NCBI RefSeq assembly: GCF_023702065.1
Contig: NZ_QFDM01000003.1
Coordinates: 310,001-374,000, forward strand
Length of the DNA stretch: 64,000 bases
Source: Methanoculleus oceani
Lineage (GTDB): Archaea > Halobacteriota > Methanomicrobia > Methanomicrobiales > Methanoculleaceae
Reading direction: 5' to 3'
Part shown: one piece after another, positions 48,172 to 58,682 of the stretch
How positions within the stretch are numbered: the stretch's first letter is position 1
Layout of the letters: every line of letters starts with the position of its first letter
Notes under the pieces: model-generated
Databases searched by the model: none
What the model saw: only the letters and a program-made list of their open reading frames with translations
What the model was told of the DNA's origin: nothing
Program-made: the position numbers and the translations under genes

Positions 48172-50108
48172 ACACGGCAGAAAGGACCGCTGAGGAAGGC
48201 CGCCCCCTGCCTGAAGATCTGCTTGTCGTTGCAGAGCGGGCGGAACAGAGAGCCGGGAAAGGGCAACTGACGATCTACCTGGGTTACGCCGCTGGCGTCG
48301 GGAAGACCTACGCGATGCTGGAGAATGCGCTCAGCCGCCGGAGCGACGGACTCGACATCGCGATCGGGTACGTGGAGACGCACGGCAGGGCAGAGACGGA
48401 TGCGCTCGCCGCAAGGCTCGAAGTTATCCCCCCGATCTCCGTCGATTACCAGGGGTTGATGCTACGGGAGCCGGATCTCGATGCGATCCTCAAGCGGCAC
48501 CCGCAAATCGTCCTCATCGACGAGCTTGCGCATACCGATGCTCCGGGAAGCCGTCACGCCAAACGCTACCAGGACATCGAGGAGATCCTTCACGCGGGGA
48601 TATCGGTCTATACCACCGTCAACATCCAGCACATCGAGAGCCAGAACGACATCGTCGCCCAGATCACGGGCATCCGCGTCGCGGAAACAGTGCCGGACAC
48701 GTTCTTCTACGATGCCGATGAGATCCGCCTGATGGACATCCCGCCGGAAGAACTCCGGATCCGCCTCCGTGCCGGAAAGGTCTATGTGCGGGATATGGCC
48801 GAGCAGGCCGTCCGGCGGTTCTTCAGCGTGGAGAACCTGCTGGCACTCCGGCAGATTGCCCTCCGGTTTATGGCGCAGGTCACCGACCGGCAGATGCTCA
48901 CCCGCATGCGGGCCAGGGCCATCCCGGGACCATGGCCTGCCGGGGAAAGGCTCCTCGTGGGGATACGCCCCGGCCCGACGGCGGACCAGATGGTCCGTGC
49001 GGCGTACCGCCTTGCGGACAGGTTCCGTGCGGACTGGATCGTGATCTCCATCGGGACCGAGGAGGAGCAGAACCTCACGGACCAGGAGCGGCGGTGGCTC
49101 AACGACGCGATGGAGACGGCAAGGAGCCTCGGAGGGCGGGTCGTCCGCTACCGCGGGGGAGACATTCCGGGCGAACTGATCCGGTACGCCCGGCAGCACA
49201 ACGTCACCATGATCATGCTCGGCAAACCCCGTGGGCTGGACATCTTCTACTCTCCCGTGTACCGCACCATGGTCCGGTCGAAGGGGATCGATATCTTCCT
49301 CTACGAACCCAAAGCGGCGGTAAGCATCCCTATCCACAGGCAGCTGCCGCAGTTTGTGAGCCCAAACCTCATCGTCAGCGCGGTACTCATCACACTCGTG
49401 ACAATCGCGAATTACTTCCTGCGAAACGTCATCAGTCCGTCAAACCTGCTCATCATCCAGCTGATCCCGGTGGTGGCGGCAGCGCTCTTCTTCCGGCGAA
49501 GGACAGCGATCATTACCGCTATCGCAAGCATCCTGGTCTTCGACTTTGCGTTTGTGGTGCCTTATTACACGCTTACAATCGACGACTGGGAGTTCTTCAT
49601 CTCGTTTGTGGGATATGTGGTCATCGCGTTCATCATCAGCAGTCTCGCAACAAGGCTCCGCTATCTGCTCCCGCAGATACGAAGGAGCGAGGCAAAGGTT
49701 GAGGCCGTCGCCGTCCTCTCCCGGGACCTGGTGAACGTCGCGCACCGCCAGGAGATCTTCGATACGCTTTACCGTCATATGAAGCAGTTCAGCGAGGGTG
49801 CATTTGCCATTTTTACGCCGGGTGTGGGGGGGCTTTTCATGAGCGTAGGGGATCCAGATTATCCGCTCACCCAGAAAGAGCGGATGATCGCCCAATGGGC
49901 ATTCGAGAACTGCCGGACAGCGGGCAGAGGCACCGAAACACTTCCAACAGGCGTAGGGCACTATGTTCCGATGAGGGCGTTTGCCGTTACGTTCGGCGTC
50001 CTGGCGTTCGCGTTCAAGAACCCGGATGAGGTGCTTACACCGGAGAATAAAGATATTCTCCAGACCATGGCATACCTTGGGGCTCTGGCTCTGGAACAGG
50101 TAGAGTGA
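48168..50108 (+). CDS. kdpD: KdpD-like sensor lacking the kinase domain
   Basis: About 646 residues. The N-terminal KdpD domain has the P-loop GYAAGVGKTYAML, DELAHTD and VNIQHIESQ. A USP-like domain (about 250-370) follows, then the four-TM DUF4118 (about 400-500) and a GAF-like domain (about 520-640). It ends there: no H-box or HATPase domain is present, and no KdpE gene follows. The ORF lacks ATG, GTG or TTG upstream of the P-loop; the first ATG in frame (48315) would cut off the P-loop. Possible starts are CTG 48168, overlapping the kdpC stop, or ACG 48174, six bases after GGAGGGA; a sequence error is another option. It may regulate KdpABC directly. Confidence 0.8.
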   Translation: MNTAERTAEEGRPLPEDLLVVAERAEQRAGKGQLTIYLGYAAGVGKTYAMLENALSRRSDGLDIAIGYVETHGRAETDALAARLEVIPPISVDYQGLMLREPDLDAILKRHPQIVLIDELAHTDAPGSRHAKRYQDIEEILHAGISVYTTVNIQHIESQNDIVAQITGIRVAETVPDTFFYDADEIRLMDIPPEELRIRLRAGKVYVRDMAEQAVRRFFSVENLLALRQIALRFMAQVTDRQMLTRMRARAIPGPWPAGERLLVGIRPGPTADQMVRAAYRLADRFRADWIVISIGTEEEQNLTDQERRWLNDAMETARSLGGRVVRYRGGDIPGELIRYARQHNVTMIMLGKPRGLDIFYSPVYRTMVRSKGIDIFLYEPKAAVSIPIHRQLPQFVSPNLIVSAVLITLVTIANYFLRNVISPSNLLIIQLIPVVAAALFFRRRTAIITAIASILVFDFAFVVPYYTLTIDDWEFFISFVGYVVIAFIISSLATRLRYLLPQIRRSEAKVEAVAVLSRDLVNVAHRQEIFDTLYRHMKQFSEGAFAIFTPGVGGLFMSVGDPDYPLTQKERMIAQWAFENCRTAGRGTETLPTGVGHYVPMRAFAVTFGVLAFAFKNPDEVLTPENKDILQTMAYLGALALEQVE

Positions 50109-50385
50109 GCGAACCGTCCCGGCCGCCGGTGCCCACTGTCGAGAGCCGCTGCAGGTCAAAGCCCGATACGGCAGGTGATGCCGGGAAGTAAACCAGATTC
50201 TGGAGAGGTATGGACGATCTGAGACGCAACCTCTTCATTCCGGAACCCCGTAGGCCCCGCGGGCGCCGATCCCGGTAGATCCGGGCCCTACGGCCAAGGA
50301 AGACGACATCCCCCCAATCAGAAAGAGATACTGCTTTTTCTGGAGTATTACCGCCAAACAGGAGGGGGGTGCGCATTCAGCCGGG

Positions 50386-50862
50386 TTACCGCACCGTTGC
50401 GATCATCTCGATCTCGACCCTCGCCCCTTTCGGGAGGCCGGCGACCTGCACCGTCGCCCGTGCGGGGTAGGGCTCGTTGAAGTACCCGGCGTAGACGGCG
50501 TTGACCGTATCGAAGTCCGCGAGATCTGTGAGGTAAATCCGGGCCTGGACGACGTCCGCGAAGTCGAGGCCGGCTTCGAGCAGCACGGCCCGCAGGTTCT
50601 CCATCGCCTGCCTCGCTTCACCGTCGACGGTATCGGAGAGGTTGCCGGTGGCCGGGTCGAGACCGATCTGCCCCGAGATAAAGAGGTAGTCCCCGCACTG
50701 CACGGCCTGGCTGTACGGCCCGATGGGCTCCGGCGCGTTCTCCGTGTAGAGAGCTGCGTGTACCGGAACGGGCGGGGCGGAGGATACGATCGCGTATATG
50801 CCAAATCCTGCAAGGAGGCCGCATGCAAAAATGAGGACCGGGATTATCGTGCTGCCGTCCAT
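50386..50862 (-). CDS. Membrane-anchored RidA (YjgF/UK114) protein
   Basis: A 158-residue protein with an N-terminal TM helix (about 5-27, IIPVLIFACGLLAGFGIYAIV), a short linker, then a complete RidA domain (about 38-158). RidA hallmarks are APEPIGPYSQAV, FISGQIGLDPATG, the catalytic Arg in PARATVQVAGLPKGARVEIEMIA, and the final Glu. RidA deaminates reactive enamine/imine intermediates from PLP enzymes in the cytosol. The N-terminal anchor would place the domain outside if N-in, which is unusual for this family. The stretch is confidently coding. Confidence 0.85.
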   Translation of the reverse strand: MDGSTIIPVLIFACGLLAGFGIYAIVSSAPPVPVHAALYTENAPEPIGPYSQAVQCGDYLFISGQIGLDPATGNLSDTVDGEARQAMENLRAVLLEAGLDFADVVQARIYLTDLADFDTVNAVYAGYFNEPYPARATVQVAGLPKGARVEIEMIATVR

Positions 50863-51496
50863 AACCTATCTATCCTGTCTGCCCGGGACCGGAGCGTCCA
50901 TATGAGGTGTTCGATGCGCCGATACGTATACCTTTGGAGGAGAGCGGGGGGCTGGTGCCGGGAGACAGGATGAAAAGCATGCGCCCGCATACTTACACGC
51001 TGAACAAAAAGCAAATAAGAAACGGCAGGTGTCTGGTATCACTCCTGAACAGATCTTAATAACTGTGGTGGGCTGCTATCTCAATGTAAGCCCCTGCTAT
51101 GGCAATCTTCGGTCGGGTTCATCCCGAAGTGCTGATGGTCGGCCGGAGCCCATGAAGTAACTATATTATACCCATCAGTGTTTTTAGATACAGTAGCAAT
51201 CAGCGGCATTGATCGGCACTGGTTTTACCAGGGGCTACCTGTGAAAAAATCGCTGGCGTTCCAATAGGTTTCAATCGCAATCTTATGCGCAGGATCACTG
51301 TATGGGATCTCTCAAGCATTATGGCAGAGCCGTCAACTCCATCCGGGCCGACCAGATCAACGAGCGCCCGGGCGACGGTGGGCGCATCCGGCCCGCGCAA
51401 AGAGGGCAGTTGCCGTGCAACGTGGCGATCTGTAGAAACGGTCGGGCTGGCACTCATCCGGCGACGGCAGGAAAGCCCTCGAGACCGCTCGGATCG
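50863..51496. other. Intergenic region with gene remnants
   Basis: About 630 bases with no intact gene. It includes AT-rich patches (for example AACTATATTATACC near 51160-51175) that could be promoters, but nothing follows in a suitable place. The right edge continues into a decayed binding-protein end. The region looks like decaying sequence. Confidence 0.45.
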
Positions 51497-51607
51497 GCAC
51501 AGTGGATGATTGTGAATAGCCCGACGAACGCAACTGCAATCCCCGGTCTGGAGATTTCCATCTCCACGAACGGTACTGAGACAGTCAAACATGAAGGCAG
51601 CGCGGAT
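51497..51607 (+). pseudogene. Remnant of a substrate-binding protein C-terminus
   Basis: In one frame the translation (QWMIVNSPTNATAIPG ... ISTNGTETVK) aligns with the C-terminal end of the binding protein at 51655 (RWMIANNLTNATNIPD ... ISTESLSSVK). DNA also matches in blocks such as GTGGATGAT and ATCTCCACG. No family sequence is found further upstream and no start is evident. It is probably what is left of a tandem duplicate of the downstream gene. Confidence 0.55.
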
Positions 51608-51654
51608 CACTCGCCGGCGGGAAGTGTCATGAAGGACACCTCCGGAGCACGGCT

Positions 51655-52662
51655 ATGAAGAAGATCACCGGTATACTCGCCGTGATTGTGCTGCTGGTGG
51701 GGTCTGGCGCATGGTTTTGGGGCATCCAGGAGCCCGGACCGGAAGAGATGGATTCCATCATCGTAGCGTATTCGCCGTTTGAGTCAACCGCGCTTTTCTG
51801 GATCGCCGAAGACCGGCACTTTTTCGAGGAGAACGGCATCGATATAACCCTGCGTGAATACGATTCCGGAGCGGCTTCGCTGGCCGGGGTGGTGAACGGT
51901 GAAGCGGACATTGCCGTGGGGGTATCCGAGTTCCCCCTTGTCCGGAAGGCGTTCCAGAACGCAAACATAAGTGCGATAGGAAACATCGACAAGGGTGAGT
52001 TCATCTATCTTGTCGCACGGCAAGACCGGGGAATCACGAATGTATCCGACCTTAGGGGTAAACGAGTCGGGACCACGATAGGGACCGTATCGGAATTCCA
52101 TCTCGGAAGGCTTCTCATGCTGCATGGCATGACGATGCAGGACATAACCCTCATTGACATCGAAACTCCGGCAGGGTGGGTGAACGCTGTTGCGGACGGA
52201 GATATCGATGCCATTTCAACCGCCCAGCCGTATGCTAATGCGGCCGGAGACCGGTTGGGCGCGAACGCTGTTGTCCTGCCGGCGCAGGGTAGCCAGCCCG
52301 TCTTCGGGCTGATCGTCTCCACCGATGACTGGATAAGAGATCATCCCGACCTCGCGGTCAGGTTTCTTATGTCATTGGCACAGGCTGAGGAATACATCCA
52401 CACTCATCCGGCCGAATCCCGGGCTATCGTGCAGAACCGGTTGAACCTCGATGCCGGGTACATAGATACGGTCTGGCAGCAGAACCAGTTCACACTCTCG
52501 CTTGACCAGTCGCTCATCACCGCGATGGAGGGCGAGGCACGGTGGATGATAGCCAATAACCTCACGAATGCAACGAATATCCCGGATTTCCACGATTATA
52601 TCTCCACGGAGAGCCTTTCAAGCGTGAAACCGGCATCGGTGAACATCATCGGAATACAGTGA
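51655..52662 (+). CDS. ABC-type substrate-binding protein (NMT1/SsuA-like), paired with a kinase
   Basis: A 335-residue exported binding protein. The N-terminal signal or anchor (about 4-24) is followed by a two-lobe type 2 periplasmic fold of the nitrate/sulfonate/taurine/thiamine precursor group (IIVAYSPFESTALFWIAED, FFEENGIDITLREYDSG, VNGEADIAVGV, DLRGKRVGTTIGTVSEF, ADGDIDAISTAQPY). There is no lipobox Cys, so it may stay tethered by the N-terminal helix. No permease or ATPase gene is adjacent. The next gene, six bases on, is a membrane histidine kinase, so a sensing role is more likely than transport. The ligand is unknown. Confidence 0.82.
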   Translation: MKKITGILAVIVLLVGSGAWFWGIQEPGPEEMDSIIVAYSPFESTALFWIAEDRHFFEENGIDITLREYDSGAASLAGVVNGEADIAVGVSEFPLVRKAFQNANISAIGNIDKGEFIYLVARQDRGITNVSDLRGKRVGTTIGTVSEFHLGRLLMLHGMTMQDITLIDIETPAGWVNAVADGDIDAISTAQPYANAAGDRLGANAVVLPAQGSQPVFGLIVSTDDWIRDHPDLAVRFLMSLAQAEEYIHTHPAESRAIVQNRLNLDAGYIDTVWQQNQFTLSLDQSLITAMEGEARWMIANNLTNATNIPDFHDYISTESLSSVKPASVNIIGIQ

Positions 52663-52668
52663 GCGACC

Positions 52669-54147
52669 ATGAAGATCAGGACACAGTTGATCATCAGCAC
52701 CGTGGTTTTCGGGCTGGTTTTGCTCATCATCGCCGTTTCGGTGGTCATCACGGACCAGCAGCTCGATCACCTCAACCGGCAGGAGCAGATCGCAAGCAAA
52801 CTTGCCCAGGGAGCGAACGATCTCAGCTATCTCTCAACCGAATACCTCCTCTACCGTGAGGATTTGCAGCGCACGCGGTGGGAATCGGTGTATACCTCGT
52901 TCTCATCCGATCTCTCGGAGCTCGACCCCCAGACTCCGGAACAGCAGGCACTGGTCGTCAATATCCGGGGCAACCAGAACCGGCTCAAGGAAATCTTTGA
53001 CAGCGTGGCCCAGGTCTATGCGACCTTCCCCGCATCGCCTGATCCGGCAACGGAACCTGTTCTGCAGGTATTGTGGAGCCGGATGGCCGTTCAGACGCAG
53101 GGTATGGGTGCCGACGCCACGCAGCTCGCGCGCATCCTGCACCAGGAGAGGGTGCAACTGGAACAGGCCAACACCCTCCTGATCTTCGCCCTGATGGGCA
53201 CTTTCGCCGCGTATATCTTCACCAGCTACATCCTCTTCTACCGGCGCACTCTGGTGGCGATCGAGAGTCTCCAGAAGGGAGCACGAATCATCGGGTCCGG
53301 CAACCTCGATTACGCCATCGTCGAGACCACCGATGACGAGATCAGTGATCTGTCACGCTCGTTCAACCGGATGGCCGCAGATCTCAAAGGGGTCACCGCT
53401 TCGAAAGCGGATCTCGAACGAGAAGCTGCCGAGCGCAAGCAGGCCGAGGAGGCTCTCCAACGCCAGACCGAAGACCTCGCCCGGCTGAACCGGGATCTCG
53501 AGTCCGCTCACCGGGAGACGAACCTTTACCTGGATATCCTGACCCACGACATCGGGAACACCGAGAATGTCTCGAACCTCTACGCCGACCTGCTCATCGA
53601 CTCCGTGGAGGGGGAGGCGGCCGGGTATGCAGAGAAACTCCGGCGGAGCGTCAGGAAGAGCATCGAGATCCTGGGCACAGTCTCAACCATCCGGAGGATT
53701 TACCGGGGACCGCCTGAACTCCGGGCGACCGAACTCGACGCAGTCATCCGGGAGGAGATCGGCCACTATCCCAACAGCAGCATCCGTTACGAGGGCGCTC
53801 CATACCTGGTGCAGGCCGATGACCTCCTGCCGGAAGTCTTCGGAAACCTGATCGGCAACGCGGTCAAGCACGGGGGTCCCGACGTCGCAATCACCGTCCG
53901 GACCGAGGAGGAGAACGGGTTCGTGCAGGTAACGGTCGAGGATACCGGCCCCGGCGTACCGGATGCGGACAAGCAGGCGATCTTCCACATCTACGAGCAG
54001 AAGAAGCGGGGCGTCGGCGAAGGCCTCGGCCTCTACCTGGTGCAGATCCTGGTCGAACGCTACGGCGGCAGGGTCTGGGTCGAGGACCGGGTGTCCGGCC
54101 GTCCGGAGGAAGGGGCGGCGTTCCGGTTCACGCTCAGAAAGGCGTGA
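52669..54147 (+). CDS. Membrane histidine kinase with HAMP, partner of the binding protein
   Basis: A 492-residue kinase. TM1 (about 7-28), an extracellular helical domain (about 30-170), TM2 (about 171-192), HAMP (about 192-245), a coiled coil with ERKQAEEAL, then H293 in LTHDIGNTENV and a HATPase with NLIGNAVKHGG, EDTGPGVP and GEGLGLYLV. The last 205 residues are near-identical in layout to the kinase at 29945, showing recent module reuse. It is six bases after the binding-protein gene, so the two probably form a ligand-sensing pair. No response regulator is adjacent. Confidence 0.9.
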   Translation: MKIRTQLIISTVVFGLVLLIIAVSVVITDQQLDHLNRQEQIASKLAQGANDLSYLSTEYLLYREDLQRTRWESVYTSFSSDLSELDPQTPEQQALVVNIRGNQNRLKEIFDSVAQVYATFPASPDPATEPVLQVLWSRMAVQTQGMGADATQLARILHQERVQLEQANTLLIFALMGTFAAYIFTSYILFYRRTLVAIESLQKGARIIGSGNLDYAIVETTDDEISDLSRSFNRMAADLKGVTASKADLEREAAERKQAEEALQRQTEDLARLNRDLESAHRETNLYLDILTHDIGNTENVSNLYADLLIDSVEGEAAGYAEKLRRSVRKSIEILGTVSTIRRIYRGPPELRATELDAVIREEIGHYPNSSIRYEGAPYLVQADDLLPEVFGNLIGNAVKHGGPDVAITVRTEEENGFVQVTVEDTGPGVPDADKQAIFHIYEQKKRGVGEGLGLYLVQILVERYGGRVWVEDRVSGRPEEGAAFRFTLRKA

Positions 54148-54498
54148 GATCCGACCTGGAGTAAAGGGTCTCCGATTATTCAACGAATTGATCGGGGACT
54201 CATAAAAATACGATAGCCATGCAAACCGAATCTTCTTGAATCAGGCGCTTTTAGGACATCGCTCTCTAATCAGGGCATTATCTCCCGGATCTCCATCTTT
54301 GTACCCGGTGCTGTGACCATCGTGGAATGCCCGGTTAACCGGATCTCAGACAACTGTTTCGGATGAATTATATAGGTTAAAATTGATTATATAATATTTT
54401 CCATTTGGAAAAATCTTTGATTCGGTGTGATCAGTGATTCCAAACGAAATATTGTTCAGATTGTTAAAACAGCCGGATTTCCGGGGTGTTAAGTTACA
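54148..54498. other. AT-rich regulatory region (351 bp)
   Basis: No gene. The stretch 54360-54420 is very AT-rich, with TATA-like TTATATAGGTTAAAAT and ATTATATAATATTTT. A perfect 7+2+7 inverted repeat (TTTTCCA TT TGGAAAA) lies at 54397-54412. Any transcript starting here would have a leader of 70 bases or more before the ATG at 54499. Confidence 0.5.
54397..54412. repeat. Inverted repeat beside TATA region, possible operator
   Basis: TTTTCCA and TGGAAAA arms are separated by TT and overlap the right edge of the TATA-like block. A repressor bound here could block transcription of the two-gene locus downstream. Confidence 0.35.
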
Positions 54499-55503
54499 AT
54501 GACAGATACCGACAAACTAAACAAAATTCTAGATAGATGCAAAGATGTTGCGTCTGTCGCCGCCGATAAGGCAACCGTAATGGCCGACTCCGCATCAGCC
54601 AGTGTTTCAGCAGGTATCAAGGAGATGCGCGAGGAATCTGCAGCATCTTCGCGTACGGACGACGGCAACTGTTCCCGGGACGGCGATGCTCGCGCAGCGG
54701 CGAAGGCGGGGGAGTGCGTCCTCTCCGGCGAGCTGGCCGTGTCTGGTGCGGCGGAAGATGCACCGGAGATAACGGTCAGGCATTCTGCGGGCGAGGTCGT
54801 GAAAGGATGCGTGCACAAGAGAATCGACGGATTCAAGAGCGGCCTGCAGAATAAAAAACTCCTGATGACCGCAGGAACCATGGCCCTGGTCTGGCTGGCT
54901 CTTACCATACTTCCGGCCATAGGGTTCAATCCGGCGCCCGTGCAGTCCCTCTCCTTCCTGACCTTCGCGCGGGGAGGGCTCTCCGGCGGCGTGCCCGGGT
55001 TTATCGGCGGCCTCATCGGAAAGGGCCTGATCGCCTACTTCGTGACGCTGCTCGTCGTCGGAGGGATATCCGGCGAGAGCATCATGTCGAATGTCCGGTC
55101 AATTGCCGGACAGTTCTCCGGAGGAAAGTGGGATCTGGCGGCGATCTCCCCGCTTCTCGTCGGCGGCGGGGCGGCTCTCTTCGTCTACAACTTCCTCGCG
55201 GGGACGTCGACGATCATGAATTGCATGGTGGGAATCGTGGCGTTCCTCATCGCGGCCCGGGCGCTGGCGAACAAAGCGGGATGCGTGCGGCAGGTCTTTG
55301 CCGCGGTCTTTGCGAAAAACGGCAGGGCCGACTCCGGGCTGGTCACGAAGGTGATGGCGGGATGGGCCGGAGGGTTCGCTCTCGGCGTCATCCTCTCCGT
55401 CTTCGGGGGGTACACCTGTTACATCGCCGGATTCGTCCTCCTGGTGGTCGGTGCCGTCCTCATGGTTACCGTTCAGAAGCAGGCGGGAGGCGTCCCGGCA
55501 TGA
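54499..55503 (+). CDS. Multi-TM protein of unknown function (first gene of two-gene locus)
   Basis: A 334-residue protein. Residues 1-110 are soluble, hydrophilic and Ala/Ser/Glu-rich with helical stretches (KLNKILDRCKDVASVAADKA) and three Cys. Then come about six TM segments (near 121-143, 168-190, 212-236, 240-258, and two in 290-330) with Gly-rich turns. No family is recognised. Its stop overlaps the next gene start by four bases (ATGA), which shows coupled translation with the 1060-residue exported protein. It could be a membrane anchor or export partner for that protein. The upstream region has a strong AT-rich promoter. Confidence 0.7.
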   Translation: MTDTDKLNKILDRCKDVASVAADKATVMADSASASVSAGIKEMREESAASSRTDDGNCSRDGDARAAAKAGECVLSGELAVSGAAEDAPEITVRHSAGEVVKGCVHKRIDGFKSGLQNKKLLMTAGTMALVWLALTILPAIGFNPAPVQSLSFLTFARGGLSGGVPGFIGGLIGKGLIAYFVTLLVVGGISGESIMSNVRSIAGQFSGGKWDLAAISPLLVGGGAALFVYNFLAGTSTIMNCMVGIVAFLIAARALANKAGCVRQVFAAVFAKNGRADSGLVTKVMAGWAGGFALGVILSVFGGYTCYIAGFVLLVVGAVLMVTVQKQAGGVPA

Positions 55504-58500
55504 GGCCGATGGCGAAACTGCTGCTCGTGCTCCTTGCAGCCTCACTGCTCTCGGGAACCGCGGCTGCAAGCTACTCGCTCACCGATACCAACAGCTACGA
55601 CTACAAACTGGCGAGCAAGTACATCCACAGCATGGAAGGCGACGAATACGTCGTCGAGATGCCGATCGATGTCTACAGGAAAGGGACGGACGACCTTCTT
55701 GCAACCGAAAACACCCTGCTGATCATCGGCAACCTCGGGAGGGTAGACCCCGAAGCGGAGCGGCTTGTCCTGACCGAGATCCCGACAGACGTTTACAGCT
55801 ACACCTACCAGGGCGACGCAGGCGGCGGCGAGATCAGGCAGATTACGGGAAAAGTCACCGCCGGCCGCTACATGTTCACCGAGTTCGGGATAAACCTGAA
55901 GTACAAGACGGCGGGGGAGTATGCCGCCTACCTGAAGACCGAACTGGAAAAATCGGTTGAGACTTCCAGCGCAAATATCGAGTACGTGGATACGACCATA
56001 AACGGACACCGCGTCGTCGGTGTGCGCGAGTTGACGGACGACCTCAACTGGGCGGCCGGCGGCGACGTCTCGGACAATCACCTGGAGAACACGTTCACCT
56101 ACTACGTGATCCGTGAGGACTTCTACCCGGCGGGTTCGGGGCTTGCCTACTTCAAGATACGGGGCCATGTCGGTCTCGAGCATGACAACGGCCGGAGTTT
56201 GACGTATGATCCGCTTCCCTCGGAGAGCCAGGTGGCTACGGCACGCTCCGAGATGAGTAAGGCTTACCAGGAAGCGAACCAGGTCGTGGACTCGGTTATC
56301 GCCGATGCGGCGAACGCAAAACCAACGCTTATCGTCGGGAACTATGAAGAGGTCTTCGGCGGCTACGGCGCCGGCTCGTTCACCATCAACACTCCGGGCG
56401 GGGGCGCCGGCGAGACCGAATACGGCATACCGCTCGTGGTCGTGACCGGTATCTTCTCCGCGGGGGCCGCGGTTGCGGGCGCTGCAGCGGCGGCCGGCGG
56501 CGGCAAAGGCGGCAGCGAGACGGAGCGCACCAGCACCTACAAGATGAGGATCCGCAAAGACTTTGAGGATTACATCGTCTGCGGGAAGAGCCCCGAGACC
56601 ATATACGCCCAGATGGTCGAGATCACCGCGGAAGGCGAGACGATCGAGAGGGACGACCTTACCGCGACGCTCTCGATAACCTCCGGCGGCGGGCTCCGGG
56701 TCGAAGACCCGGCGCTCGCCGGCAGCTACATGGGAGCCTTCGTATCTGCGGATGAGAACGAGCTCGCGGAAGAGGGCATCGTCAGGGTGGCCTACACAGG
56801 AAAGGGCGGATCGTTCACGAACAACATCCATTTCCGGATCATCGGCGAGCCGAGAGTCACGTTCCCCGAGCAGGGAGAGGCCATGGACATGCGGCTGAAC
56901 GTCCTCTACGGCGACGGCAAGACCTACGATGTCGAGGTCGAACTCGTCGACTTCATAGAGCCACCGAAGGAGGTCACGATCACTCAAGCCGACGAGGCGC
57001 CGTTCACGAGCTCCTTAGAGAAGATCGACGAGACGCACTATGTTGCAAAGATCGTCAACACGAGCCCGTTGCCCGAGAAGGGAGCGCCGGTGACGAGATA
57101 CGGTGCGAGAGTCATCGCCACCCGCGAGGATGACGAGGTCGTCGAGGAAGCGTTCACGGTGATCTTCTACCCCGAGGGTCTCAGCGTCACCGACGTCGTC
57201 TACGACAAAGAGGGACACGCCCAGTTTGCGGCCTACGACGATCGGGACACGGAAGAGGACGACGTTGCAGTGACCGGGTTCATCGTGAACCTCGCCGTCA
57301 GGGTGACCGAGAACGGGAAGGAAGTGGTGAAACTCCTGGACGGGACCGAGTACGCGCCCGAGTTCGGCGAGATCAAGGGAACCGAACCGAGAACGGAGGT
57401 CCTTGCCTCGAAGTTTAAGTACACCATCGAGAAGAAGCCGGACAACACCAACAAGGCCTACAAGTTCACCCCTGCCCAGCAGATCGGTGAGGACGAGAGG
57501 AACCCGTACTTCCTGGAACTCCCGATCACCTGCGAGTACGGTGACGAGACCTACGAGCTCGATCTCCCCATCCGACTCATCGGGGATAAACTCGGGGTGC
57601 GCAAGGACCGCGAGACCGAACTTGCGAACCTGAAGAAGAGGATCCAGAAGTTCGGCATCAATCCGGACACCGCCCGGTTCCTGCGGGAGAACGTGCAGAA
57701 CTTCACTGCCGCCGAGCTCCGCCTGATGAGCAAGAAGATCGTTTACGACTCGATCGTCTACTACACCCAGGAGTCGGCGGACTTCATGGAGACCGCCCAG
57801 ACCATGGACGACTGGATCACCTTCCTCTCCGTCGTCAAGTGGTTCGGCGACCAGGCGTTCTCGTACCTCATGACCATCTACACGGGGCCTGCGGGAGAGG
57901 CGATCCTCACCCCCACAAAGGAGCTTACGGTCGAACTGATCGGCGAGATGTCGGCCGACCTCTTCATGGGTAACGGGGTGAGCTGGGACCAGATCAAGGT
58001 CGGTACGCACATCTCCGAGATGATCGAGAACTACACCAAGTCGTGCTTCGAGGATCTGGCGACAGCGAACCCGAAGAAGCTCGCCCAGGTGATCGCGGGG
58101 CTCTGCGTCTTCAACCTGGTGCGCCACTACACCTTCGATCTCGACGAGAACGGGAAACGCAGCCTGTACAATGCGATCATCTCGTCGTTCTCCGACATCT
58201 CGCTCGAGTTCTTCAAGAACAAGTTCTCGGGCTTCCTCAAGGGCAAGGTCAACGACCCGAATTCGAGCATCTCCAAGCTCCTGAACTCGTCGGCGGCCAG
58301 GATGCTCGAGGACATGATGCCGGAGGGGAAACTCGCGGTTCCGGGCGTGAACACCCTCACGGAAGACGTAGCGGTAGGCCCCATCCTCCAGAAGTACGTG
58401 GAGGAGATCTTCGGCTTCGGTGCGTCCTACGTGACGCAGGAGTTAGGAACGGCGGCTGCCGAGACCCTCTATGTGAAGGTGAAGGTCGGCGTCCCCAATT

Positions 58501-58682
58501 CGGACCGGGAGATCGACTGGTACGTCTTCATAGACCCGATCAAAGCGGCCGACAAACTCCTGGATTACATCTTCACGTCGCTCTACGAGAAGTTCCCGTT
58601 CCCGACCGCGGAGCCGGGAGAAGCCTGCAAACCTCGCGACCCGCTCTACATGGACCCGTCGACCAACCAGCGGATCGGATGA
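55500..58682 (+). CDS. Large exported protein of unknown function (1060 aa)
   Basis: Begins with a signal peptide (about 1-23, KLLLVLLAASLLSGTAAA). Residues 25-300 form an external domain rich in Tyr and charged residues. A hydrophobic Ala/Gly segment (about 308-335) is probably a TM helix. From about 340 to 690 come repeated beta-rich stretches resembling Ig-like folds. From about 700 to the end the protein is helical and less polar (LKKRIQKFGINPDTARFLREN, FMETAQTMDDWITFLSVVKWFGDQAF). No domain is recognised. The start is fixed by the signal peptide; the reading frame extends upstream inside the previous gene. It is translationally coupled to that gene. Confidence 0.75.
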   Translation: MRPMAKLLLVLLAASLLSGTAAASYSLTDTNSYDYKLASKYIHSMEGDEYVVEMPIDVYRKGTDDLLATENTLLIIGNLGRVDPEAERLVLTEIPTDVYSYTYQGDAGGGEIRQITGKVTAGRYMFTEFGINLKYKTAGEYAAYLKTELEKSVETSSANIEYVDTTINGHRVVGVRELTDDLNWAAGGDVSDNHLENTFTYYVIREDFYPAGSGLAYFKIRGHVGLEHDNGRSLTYDPLPSESQVATARSEMSKAYQEANQVVDSVIADAANAKPTLIVGNYEEVFGGYGAGSFTINTPGGGAGETEYGIPLVVVTGIFSAGAAVAGAAAAAGGGKGGSETERTSTYKMRIRKDFEDYIVCGKSPETIYAQMVEITAEGETIERDDLTATLSITSGGGLRVEDPALAGSYMGAFVSADENELAEEGIVRVAYTGKGGSFTNNIHFRIIGEPRVTFPEQGEAMDMRLNVLYGDGKTYDVEVELVDFIEPPKEVTITQADEAPFTSSLEKIDETHYVAKIVNTSPLPEKGAPVTRYGARVIATREDDEVVEEAFTVIFYPEGLSVTDVVYDKEGHAQFAAYDDRDTEEDDVAVTGFIVNLAVRVTENGKEVVKLLDGTEYAPEFGEIKGTEPRTEVLASKFKYTIEKKPDNTNKAYKFTPAQQIGEDERNPYFLELPITCEYGDETYELDLPIRLIGDKLGVRKDRETELANLKKRIQKFGINPDTARFLRENVQNFTAAELRLMSKKIVYDSIVYYTQESADFMETAQTMDDWITFLSVVKWFGDQAFSYLMTIYTGPAGEAILTPTKELTVELIGEMSADLFMGNGVSWDQIKVGTHISEMIENYTKSCFEDLATANPKKLAQVIAGLCVFNLVRHYTFDLDENGKRSLYNAIISSFSDISLEFFKNKFSGFLKGKVNDPNSSISKLLNSSAARMLEDMMPEGKLAVPGVNTLTEDVAVGPILQKYVEEIFGFGASYVTQELGTAAAETLYVKVKVGVPNSDREIDWYVFIDPIKAADKLLDYIFTSLYEKFPFPTAEPGEACKPRDPLYMDPSTNQRIG

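Follow-up and report, generated by a model that had tools for sequence, protein, structure and literature searches.

The window, a 64,000-nucleotide stretch of the Methanoculleus oceani genome (2.455 Mb in 3 contigs), carries two adjacent genes on the forward strand. Based on ORF, Pfam, AlphaFold2, and structure-match results, the first gene (51655..52662, +) encodes a 335-amino acid SsuA/TauA-like protein (Pfam NMT1) with a predicted type 2 periplasmic-binding fold. The second (52669..54147, +), read from its ORF, Pfam, AlphaFold2, and motifs, encodes a 492-amino acid histidine kinase with a transmembrane segment, a predicted external four-helix bundle, a second transmembrane segment, a HAMP domain, a candidate phosphoacceptor histidine, and a HATPase domain. 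ORF reading placed 6 bases between the stop codon of the binding-protein gene and the ATG of the kinase gene; the first-pass annotation, which described a binding protein directly 5' of a HAMP kinase, had located the pair exactly. kdpB, kdpC, and a KdpD-like gene lie 5' of the pair. Since the last of these genes stops at 50108 and the stretch between holds a Rid-family (L-PSP) gene on the opposite strand, they have no link to the pair, and a joint operon was rejected. The KdpD-like protein (48315-50108) contains sensor, DUF4118, Usp-like, and GAF-like parts, and Pfam detected no kinase domain in it. On the 3' side (54499-58682), two long ORFs (334 and about 1059 amino acids) had no Pfam match at E ≤ 0.001. 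A Pfam scan found no receiver protein among the flanking ORFs, and the pair has no response regulator gene beside it in the window; a receiver gene does come after the pair in genome G001 (L089). No RNA elements were found in 50000-55000 at the gathering score, and promoter and terminator pattern counts, obtained with bacterial consensus sequences only, were not above those of shuffles.

The binding protein matched NMT1 (PF09084) with E = 6e-26 and 92.1 bits, above the gathering score of 20.5. Its best NCBIfam model was SsuA_fam (TIGR01728; 122.1 bits, under the curated cut-off of 163.5), and PF12974 scored 23.1 bits, below its cut-off of 27. The AlphaFold2 model (pLDDT 84, pTM 0.80; residues 1-28 unreliable) had SsuA as its best solved match (2x26; Z 30.1, rmsd 2.6, 283 aligned), followed by TauA (6ssy; Z 27.3). 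The Pfam match and the likeness to SsuA bear out the type 2, NMT1/SsuA-like fold proposed at first pass. Judging from this fold, sulfonate-type compounds would be a first guess for the ligand. Relatives of the fold also include enzymes (Thi5, DszB, MqnD), which raises the idea that the protein works outside the cytoplasm as an enzyme or scavenger and that its gene shares only regulation with that of the kinase. We consider this hardly credible for a protein whose predicted fold is closest to sulfonate and taurine binders and whose best NCBIfam model is the SsuA subfamily.

Residues 4-24 (51664..51726, +) form a putative N-terminal hydrophobic anchor without a lipobox. All 28 full-length kinase-linked binding proteins had a hydrophobic N-terminal stretch and none had a lipobox (0/28). 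A lipobox-like Gly-Cys was recognized by eye in 8 of 8 ABC-type NMT1 proteins of the same genomes (L110, L112, L113, L114, L115, L116, L118, L121); these eight are mutually close relatives and thus reflect few independent events, and L118, seen without a permease, is a fragment. The uncleaved-looking helix described earlier was confirmed as a hydrophobic segment without lipobox, also in 27 homologues, and by its sequence it may yet be cleaved by an archaeal signal peptidase. Profile and alignment conservation also marked a C-terminal segment, residues 274-332 (52474..52650, +; W274, L283, Q285, R296, W297, P326). We rejected this motif as a marker of kinase linkage because bacterial relatives linked to ABC genes carry it too, in a looser form.

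The kinase contains a HAMP domain at residues 190-240 (53236..53388, +; PF00672, 2.3e-10) and a HATPase_c domain with N, G1, and G2-like motifs at residues 386-491 (53824..54141, +; PF02518, 5.7e-22). Pfam HisKA did not match, so the candidate phosphoacceptor His293 (53545..53547, +) was assigned by its THDIGN motif. The external domain spans residues 29-166 (52753..53166, +). When residues 1-264 were compared with Pfam at E ≤ 0.1, HAMP alone was found and the external bundle had no family match; a sensor profile likewise gave no significant match against PDB sequences. AlphaFold2 predicted four helices (residues 2-62, 65-84, 90-119, and 130-209), with pLDDT of about 84-97 in the bundle outside one loop, in line with the short helical bundle suggested from the first reading. 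Among the fold families listed by VIA-align, the top rank was LytSN of XylFII-LytSN (5xsj_L; Z 16.4, rmsd 1.8, 121 aligned), followed by a designed bundle (Z 15.6), 4HB chemoreceptor domains (13-14), TorS (3o1i, Z 12.5), and NarQ (about 12.5). Foldseek with the sensor model yielded no match at E ≤ 0.001, with NarQ leading. The four-helix-bundle fold class is well supported by the model, and the resemblance to LytS in particular is no more than suggestive, as the LytSN score is just modestly above those of unrelated helical bundles, which match one another easily. The predicted fold is of a kind that receives binding proteins (LytSN, TorS). Among 28 sensors, E51, L52, Y54, L55, N57, D58, Y59, W71, W136, S137, Q142, and Q144 were conserved. 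Placed by helix order, the patch E51-Y59, W71, and W136-Q144 would lie towards the membrane-distal half, within reach of a docking partner, and part of these residues may simply be core.

We analyzed the conservation of the pair across archaeal genomes. The first query was the N-terminal 264 residues of the kinase, chosen without regard to the binding protein. In 120 genomes of the order, 15 matches reached back to the first residues, and each of those fetched lay no more than 370 bases 3' of a binding-protein homologue (L035, the nearest named relative, is from a Methanomicrobiales archaeon). We built profile A2 from these 15 sensor (transmembrane and external) regions and profile A1 from the binding proteins. 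Because all A2 source kinases came from pairs, more diverged partnerless sensors could be missed. A2 found 30 places among 232 order genomes (26 with a match) and 12 among 392 phylum genomes (11 with a match), 33 distinct places in total. An A1 binding protein stood directly upstream on the same strand at 31 of them; the two exceptions were G529, cut by a contig end, and G532, with no binding protein within 1500 bases upstream. The stop-to-start distance varied between a 4-base overlap and a 367-base gap and was at most 30 bases in 28 of 31 pairs. Three pairs (G415, G136, G145) belong to two families of the phylum that are not part of the order, and the pair persisted even where sensor-region identity falls to about 23-30%. 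This adjacency is far beyond chance. In G415 (L196:3005-7136), STAS and RsbU_N-PAS-kinase-receiver genes, a stressosome-like set, are found directly 5' of the pair.

Applying A1 at E ≤ 1e-40, we identified 37 places among the 232 order genomes, spread over 27 of them, and 13 among the 392 phylum genomes, spread over 11. These 11 are exactly the phylum genomes that A2 matched; this co-occurrence and the pairing of the sensor places answer the question of conservation raised with the first-pass annotation. Within the order, both proteins occurred in 25 genomes, the sensor alone in one (G532), and the binding protein alone in two (G056, G528). A sensor followed 34 of 40 distinct binding-protein places, comprising the 31 partners and three first tandem copies (G115, G108, G493). 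Three places were cut by contig ends (G056:C130, G529:C218, G077:C111) and three had no adjoining sensor (G056:C139, G528:C5, G529:C186). In the incomplete genome G056, the binding protein at C139 is followed by a receiver protein, and the gene at G528:C5 is broken by a frameshift. The partner distances correlated (r = 0.73; permutation maximum 0.28 in 2000), with species kinship left uncontrolled in this value. Nearest neighbours agreed between the two distance tables in just 10 of 28 cases, so the argument for co-inheritance rests on adjacency and co-occurrence, not on fine tree matching.

These counts also bear on whether the bundle senses a signal of its own, as NarX/NarQ or 4HB chemoreceptor domains do, with the binding protein merely modulating or quenching. 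The likeness of the bundle to NarQ and 4HB ligand-binding domains would suit such a kinase, as would the G532 sensor, which stands without a binding protein. However, adjacency and co-occurrence are nearly strict over deep divergence, and the rare unpaired cases fall in one genus, g30 (G528, G529, G532), or in the incomplete genome. We therefore consider direct sensing by the bundle unlikely.

Subsequently, we examined the transport context. No permease lies next to the pair, as had been stated at first pass; within the genome, PF00528 comes closest at C3:386538, some 22 kb off, where it accompanies an NMT1-type binding protein of its own (C3:385191). The genome holds three PF09084 places: the query, C3:385191, and a weak match at C3:396829, which spans the same profile positions as a G053 match inside a HisG-like ORF (L117). 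The C3:385191 protein (23% identity) has a lipobox, is permease-linked, and belongs to the genome's only NMT1-type ABC system. Across 15 pair-bearing genomes, none of the 143 PF00528 places over the cut-off (10 in this genome and 133 in 14 others, with one more below the cut-off) lay within 10 kb of a pair on the contig sequence available, which for some pairs ends only a few kb away. Of all these places, the one nearest to a pair, in G108, is about 13 kb from it and beside its own NMT1 protein.

In a maximum likelihood tree of 54 proteins, a branch with 74/74 support, present in 72% of bootstrap trees, set the 33 archaeal pair-type proteins apart, with none of the 16 sampled ABC-linked proteins on their side; the branch is weakly supported, the ABC rows are a chosen sample, and the Yoonia row is a long branch. 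Seven archaeal ABC-linked proteins were far off, within a 99/97 group. Bacterial signalling-linked proteins (Limnobacter and two Vibrio) grouped together at 100/98, beside six bacterial ABC-linked proteins at 95/84, and this ABC-linked group is closer to the pair proteins than the genome's own ABC protein. Given their position next to ABC-linked proteins in the tree, recruitment of the bacterial signalling proteins may have been a separate event. Using the PF00528 matches and this tree, we looked for a permease and ATPase elsewhere that pair with the window protein by phylogeny, the observation that the first-pass annotation regarded as contrary to its proposal, and found none.

The protein might instead be an orphan ABC import component serving a permease elsewhere, with the kinase regulating uptake without touching it. 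Its fold is that of transport proteins (SsuA, TauA), and distant bacterial relatives lie in ordinary ABC operons (two more by ORF reading). Of 8 plasmid records examined among the 30 listed, two had a signalling layout and six had ABC operons, four by annotation and those of Cupriavidus and Allorhizobium from ORF reading. Nevertheless, the only NMT1-type ABC system of the genome has its own lipobox binding protein, the tree separates the pair proteins from the ABC-linked sample, and PF00528 is absent within 10 kb of the pair in the 15 pair-bearing genomes. Import by this protein is, in our estimate, decidedly unlikely.

We propose, with a probability of roughly 0.8, that the two genes encode a binding-protein-dependent sensor kinase, for which we infer the docking, the direction of control, the ligand, and the regulator. 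The SsuA/TauA-type binding protein would be held at the outer membrane face by its uncleaved N-terminal helix, in which case a lipid anchor would be unneeded, and would catch a small ligand. In its ligand-bound (or ligand-free) state it would dock on the kinase's external four-helix bundle, in the manner of XylFII and LytS. The movement of the helices, transmitted by HAMP, would then set autophosphorylation at His293, and the phosphate would go to a response regulator encoded elsewhere. The first-pass annotation had suggested such a tethered receptor signalling through the kinase. Pair conservation, the branch apart from ABC-linked proteins, and the presence of an ABC system with its own lipoprotein-like binding protein support it as the best reading, in which physical interaction and control of the kinase by ligand are inferred. 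Against it we counted the partnerless G532 sensor, the three unpaired binding proteins, a G006 kinase without HATPase, and the limited neighbour agreement (10/28). The gene pair, its conservation and co-occurrence, the N-terminal anchor, the predicted folds, and the lack of a permease nearby are observations. The unit is real and conserved, and as a receptor it is functionally plausible.

Several known systems share parts of this arrangement. In XylFII-LytS of Clostridium beijerinckii, a binding protein likewise acts on a kinase with an external four-helix bundle, and LytSN was our top structural match. XylFII differs in being a XylF-like, type 1 D-xylose binder, whereas the window protein is SsuA/TauA-like and type 2. 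XylFII docks on helices H3/H4 of LytS, according to the portion of PMC9769921 consulted. In AioX-AioS, ArxX, and ArrX, which serve arsenic oxyanion sensing, a type 2 binding protein encoded beside a kinase is used for signalling only (PMC5908839, in part). This is the same use of a type 2 protein, but AioX is PhnD-like with Cys106 and the window protein contains no cysteine. CuaD-CuaS-CuaR (Ruminiclostridium), TorT-TorS, and LuxP-LuxQ share the three-component logic of binding protein, kinase, and regulator; CuaD, TorT, and LuxP come from families other than that of the window protein. CuaD is predicted to be lipid-anchored, as given in an excerpt of PMC10384115. A response regulator is encoded alongside in AioXSR and CuaDSR, though not in every system, and the window pair has none. 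The receptors of BasB-BasT and CosB-CosT, the latter a further such Halobacterium couple, are chemotaxis transducers, whereas the window receptor is a histidine kinase. BasB-BasT of Halobacterium is an archaeal example of a membrane receptor acted on by a binding protein (Kokoeva 2002, as cited in sections of PMC11113362 and PMC9602780). NMT1 domains fused to transmembrane-PAS proteins also use NMT1 as sensory input, but as a single polypeptide. One such fusion, of a different NMT1 type and not among the A1 matches at E 1e-40, was seen at G077:C47 (L093; NMT1 with transmembrane and PAS domains).

Kinases, cyclases, and chemoreceptors activated by binding proteins are established in the sections drawn on here (PMC11113362, PMC9602780, PMC5908839, PMC10384115, PMC9769921), in which the archaeal case cited is binding-protein-mediated chemotaxis. 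Neighbouring genes of this kind are not always functionally linked: the AgtS and AruS pairs of Pseudomonas showed no interaction (PMC11113362, in part). Most kinases of Methanosarcina acetivorans are orphans (PMC11784639, in part), and a term search of the portions available of PMC5847659, PMC6944256, and PMC11784639 for substrate-binding or binding-protein partners returned nothing relevant. Our literature searches listed no report of an archaeal binding-protein/kinase pair. The mechanism is known in kind, mainly from bacteria, and the protein family, domain of life, and domain composition are new as far as we have seen. With this pair, the range of binding-protein-dependent kinases would come to include archaea and the NMT1/SsuA family. 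Its external bundle is a domain without a Pfam match here that goes together with the binding protein. The signals perceived by archaeal histidine kinases are largely obscure, and a conserved ligand-binding partner offers a direct handle, as ligands can be screened on the binding protein alone.

Next, we compared what lies behind HAMP in seven proteins. HisKA and HATPase followed in G001, HisKA_2 with PAS and GAF in G047, PAS-rich regions in G053 and G077, and HATPase without HisKA in the window and G115. Because these outputs vary, the binding protein and bundle look like a portable input module. In G119, a 652-amino acid protein outside the pair is 77% identical to residues 255-492 of the window kinase. 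No HATPase domain was detected in the pair-type kinase of G006 (L085:9053-10468; HAMP and PAS), which may be truncated or a pseudokinase.

Related layouts were found in bacteria. Limnobacter sp. (L037) has a pair-type binding protein (A1 E 3.5e-62) whose gene overlaps the start of the next one, encoding a hybrid kinase (HAMP-HisKA-HATPase-receiver); the N-terminus of this kinase matched A2 weakly in a single-sequence search (E 1.2e-7, 17.5 bits). On Vibrio plasmids, a diguanylate cyclase adjoins the binding protein; it is annotated in V. nigripulchritudo and was read from GGDEF motifs in Vibrio sp. THAF191d, for which no genes are listed. A2 matched neither Vibrio neighbour, so both cases rest on position and layout. 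It is tempting, though doubtful, to see in the tethered SsuA-type binding protein and its four-helix-bundle co-receptor one portable module common to archaea and bacteria, with interchangeable outputs (kinases of the HisKA, HisKA_2, and methanogen types, a hybrid kinase, and a diguanylate cyclase). If so, it would represent the first histidine kinase of methanogens that depends on a binding protein, and the signal might be a shared cofactor or nutrient of sulfonate-like kind, for instance coenzyme M.

Some copies appear to be decaying. In genus g30, we observed a frameshifted binding protein (G528, L191), a sensor alone (G532, L192), and a binding protein without kinase (G529, L193), each close to a similar, functionally unassigned gene, and the pair seems to be breaking up there. 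In the window, a profile match (iE 0.0037; profile positions 296-328) and DNA alignment with genus relatives revealed a remnant of a second, upstream binding-protein copy (51494..51592, +). The corresponding remnant in G052 and G119 is about 150 bases longer (positions 196-330). This upstream tandem copy (51494-51592 in the window; L075:7692-8090; L091:278-631) shows graded decay in the genus, being half-length in G052 and G119 and fragmentary in G100 and the window. In G115, G108, and G493, tandem binding proteins precede one kinase, suggesting that two receptors may serve one kinase.
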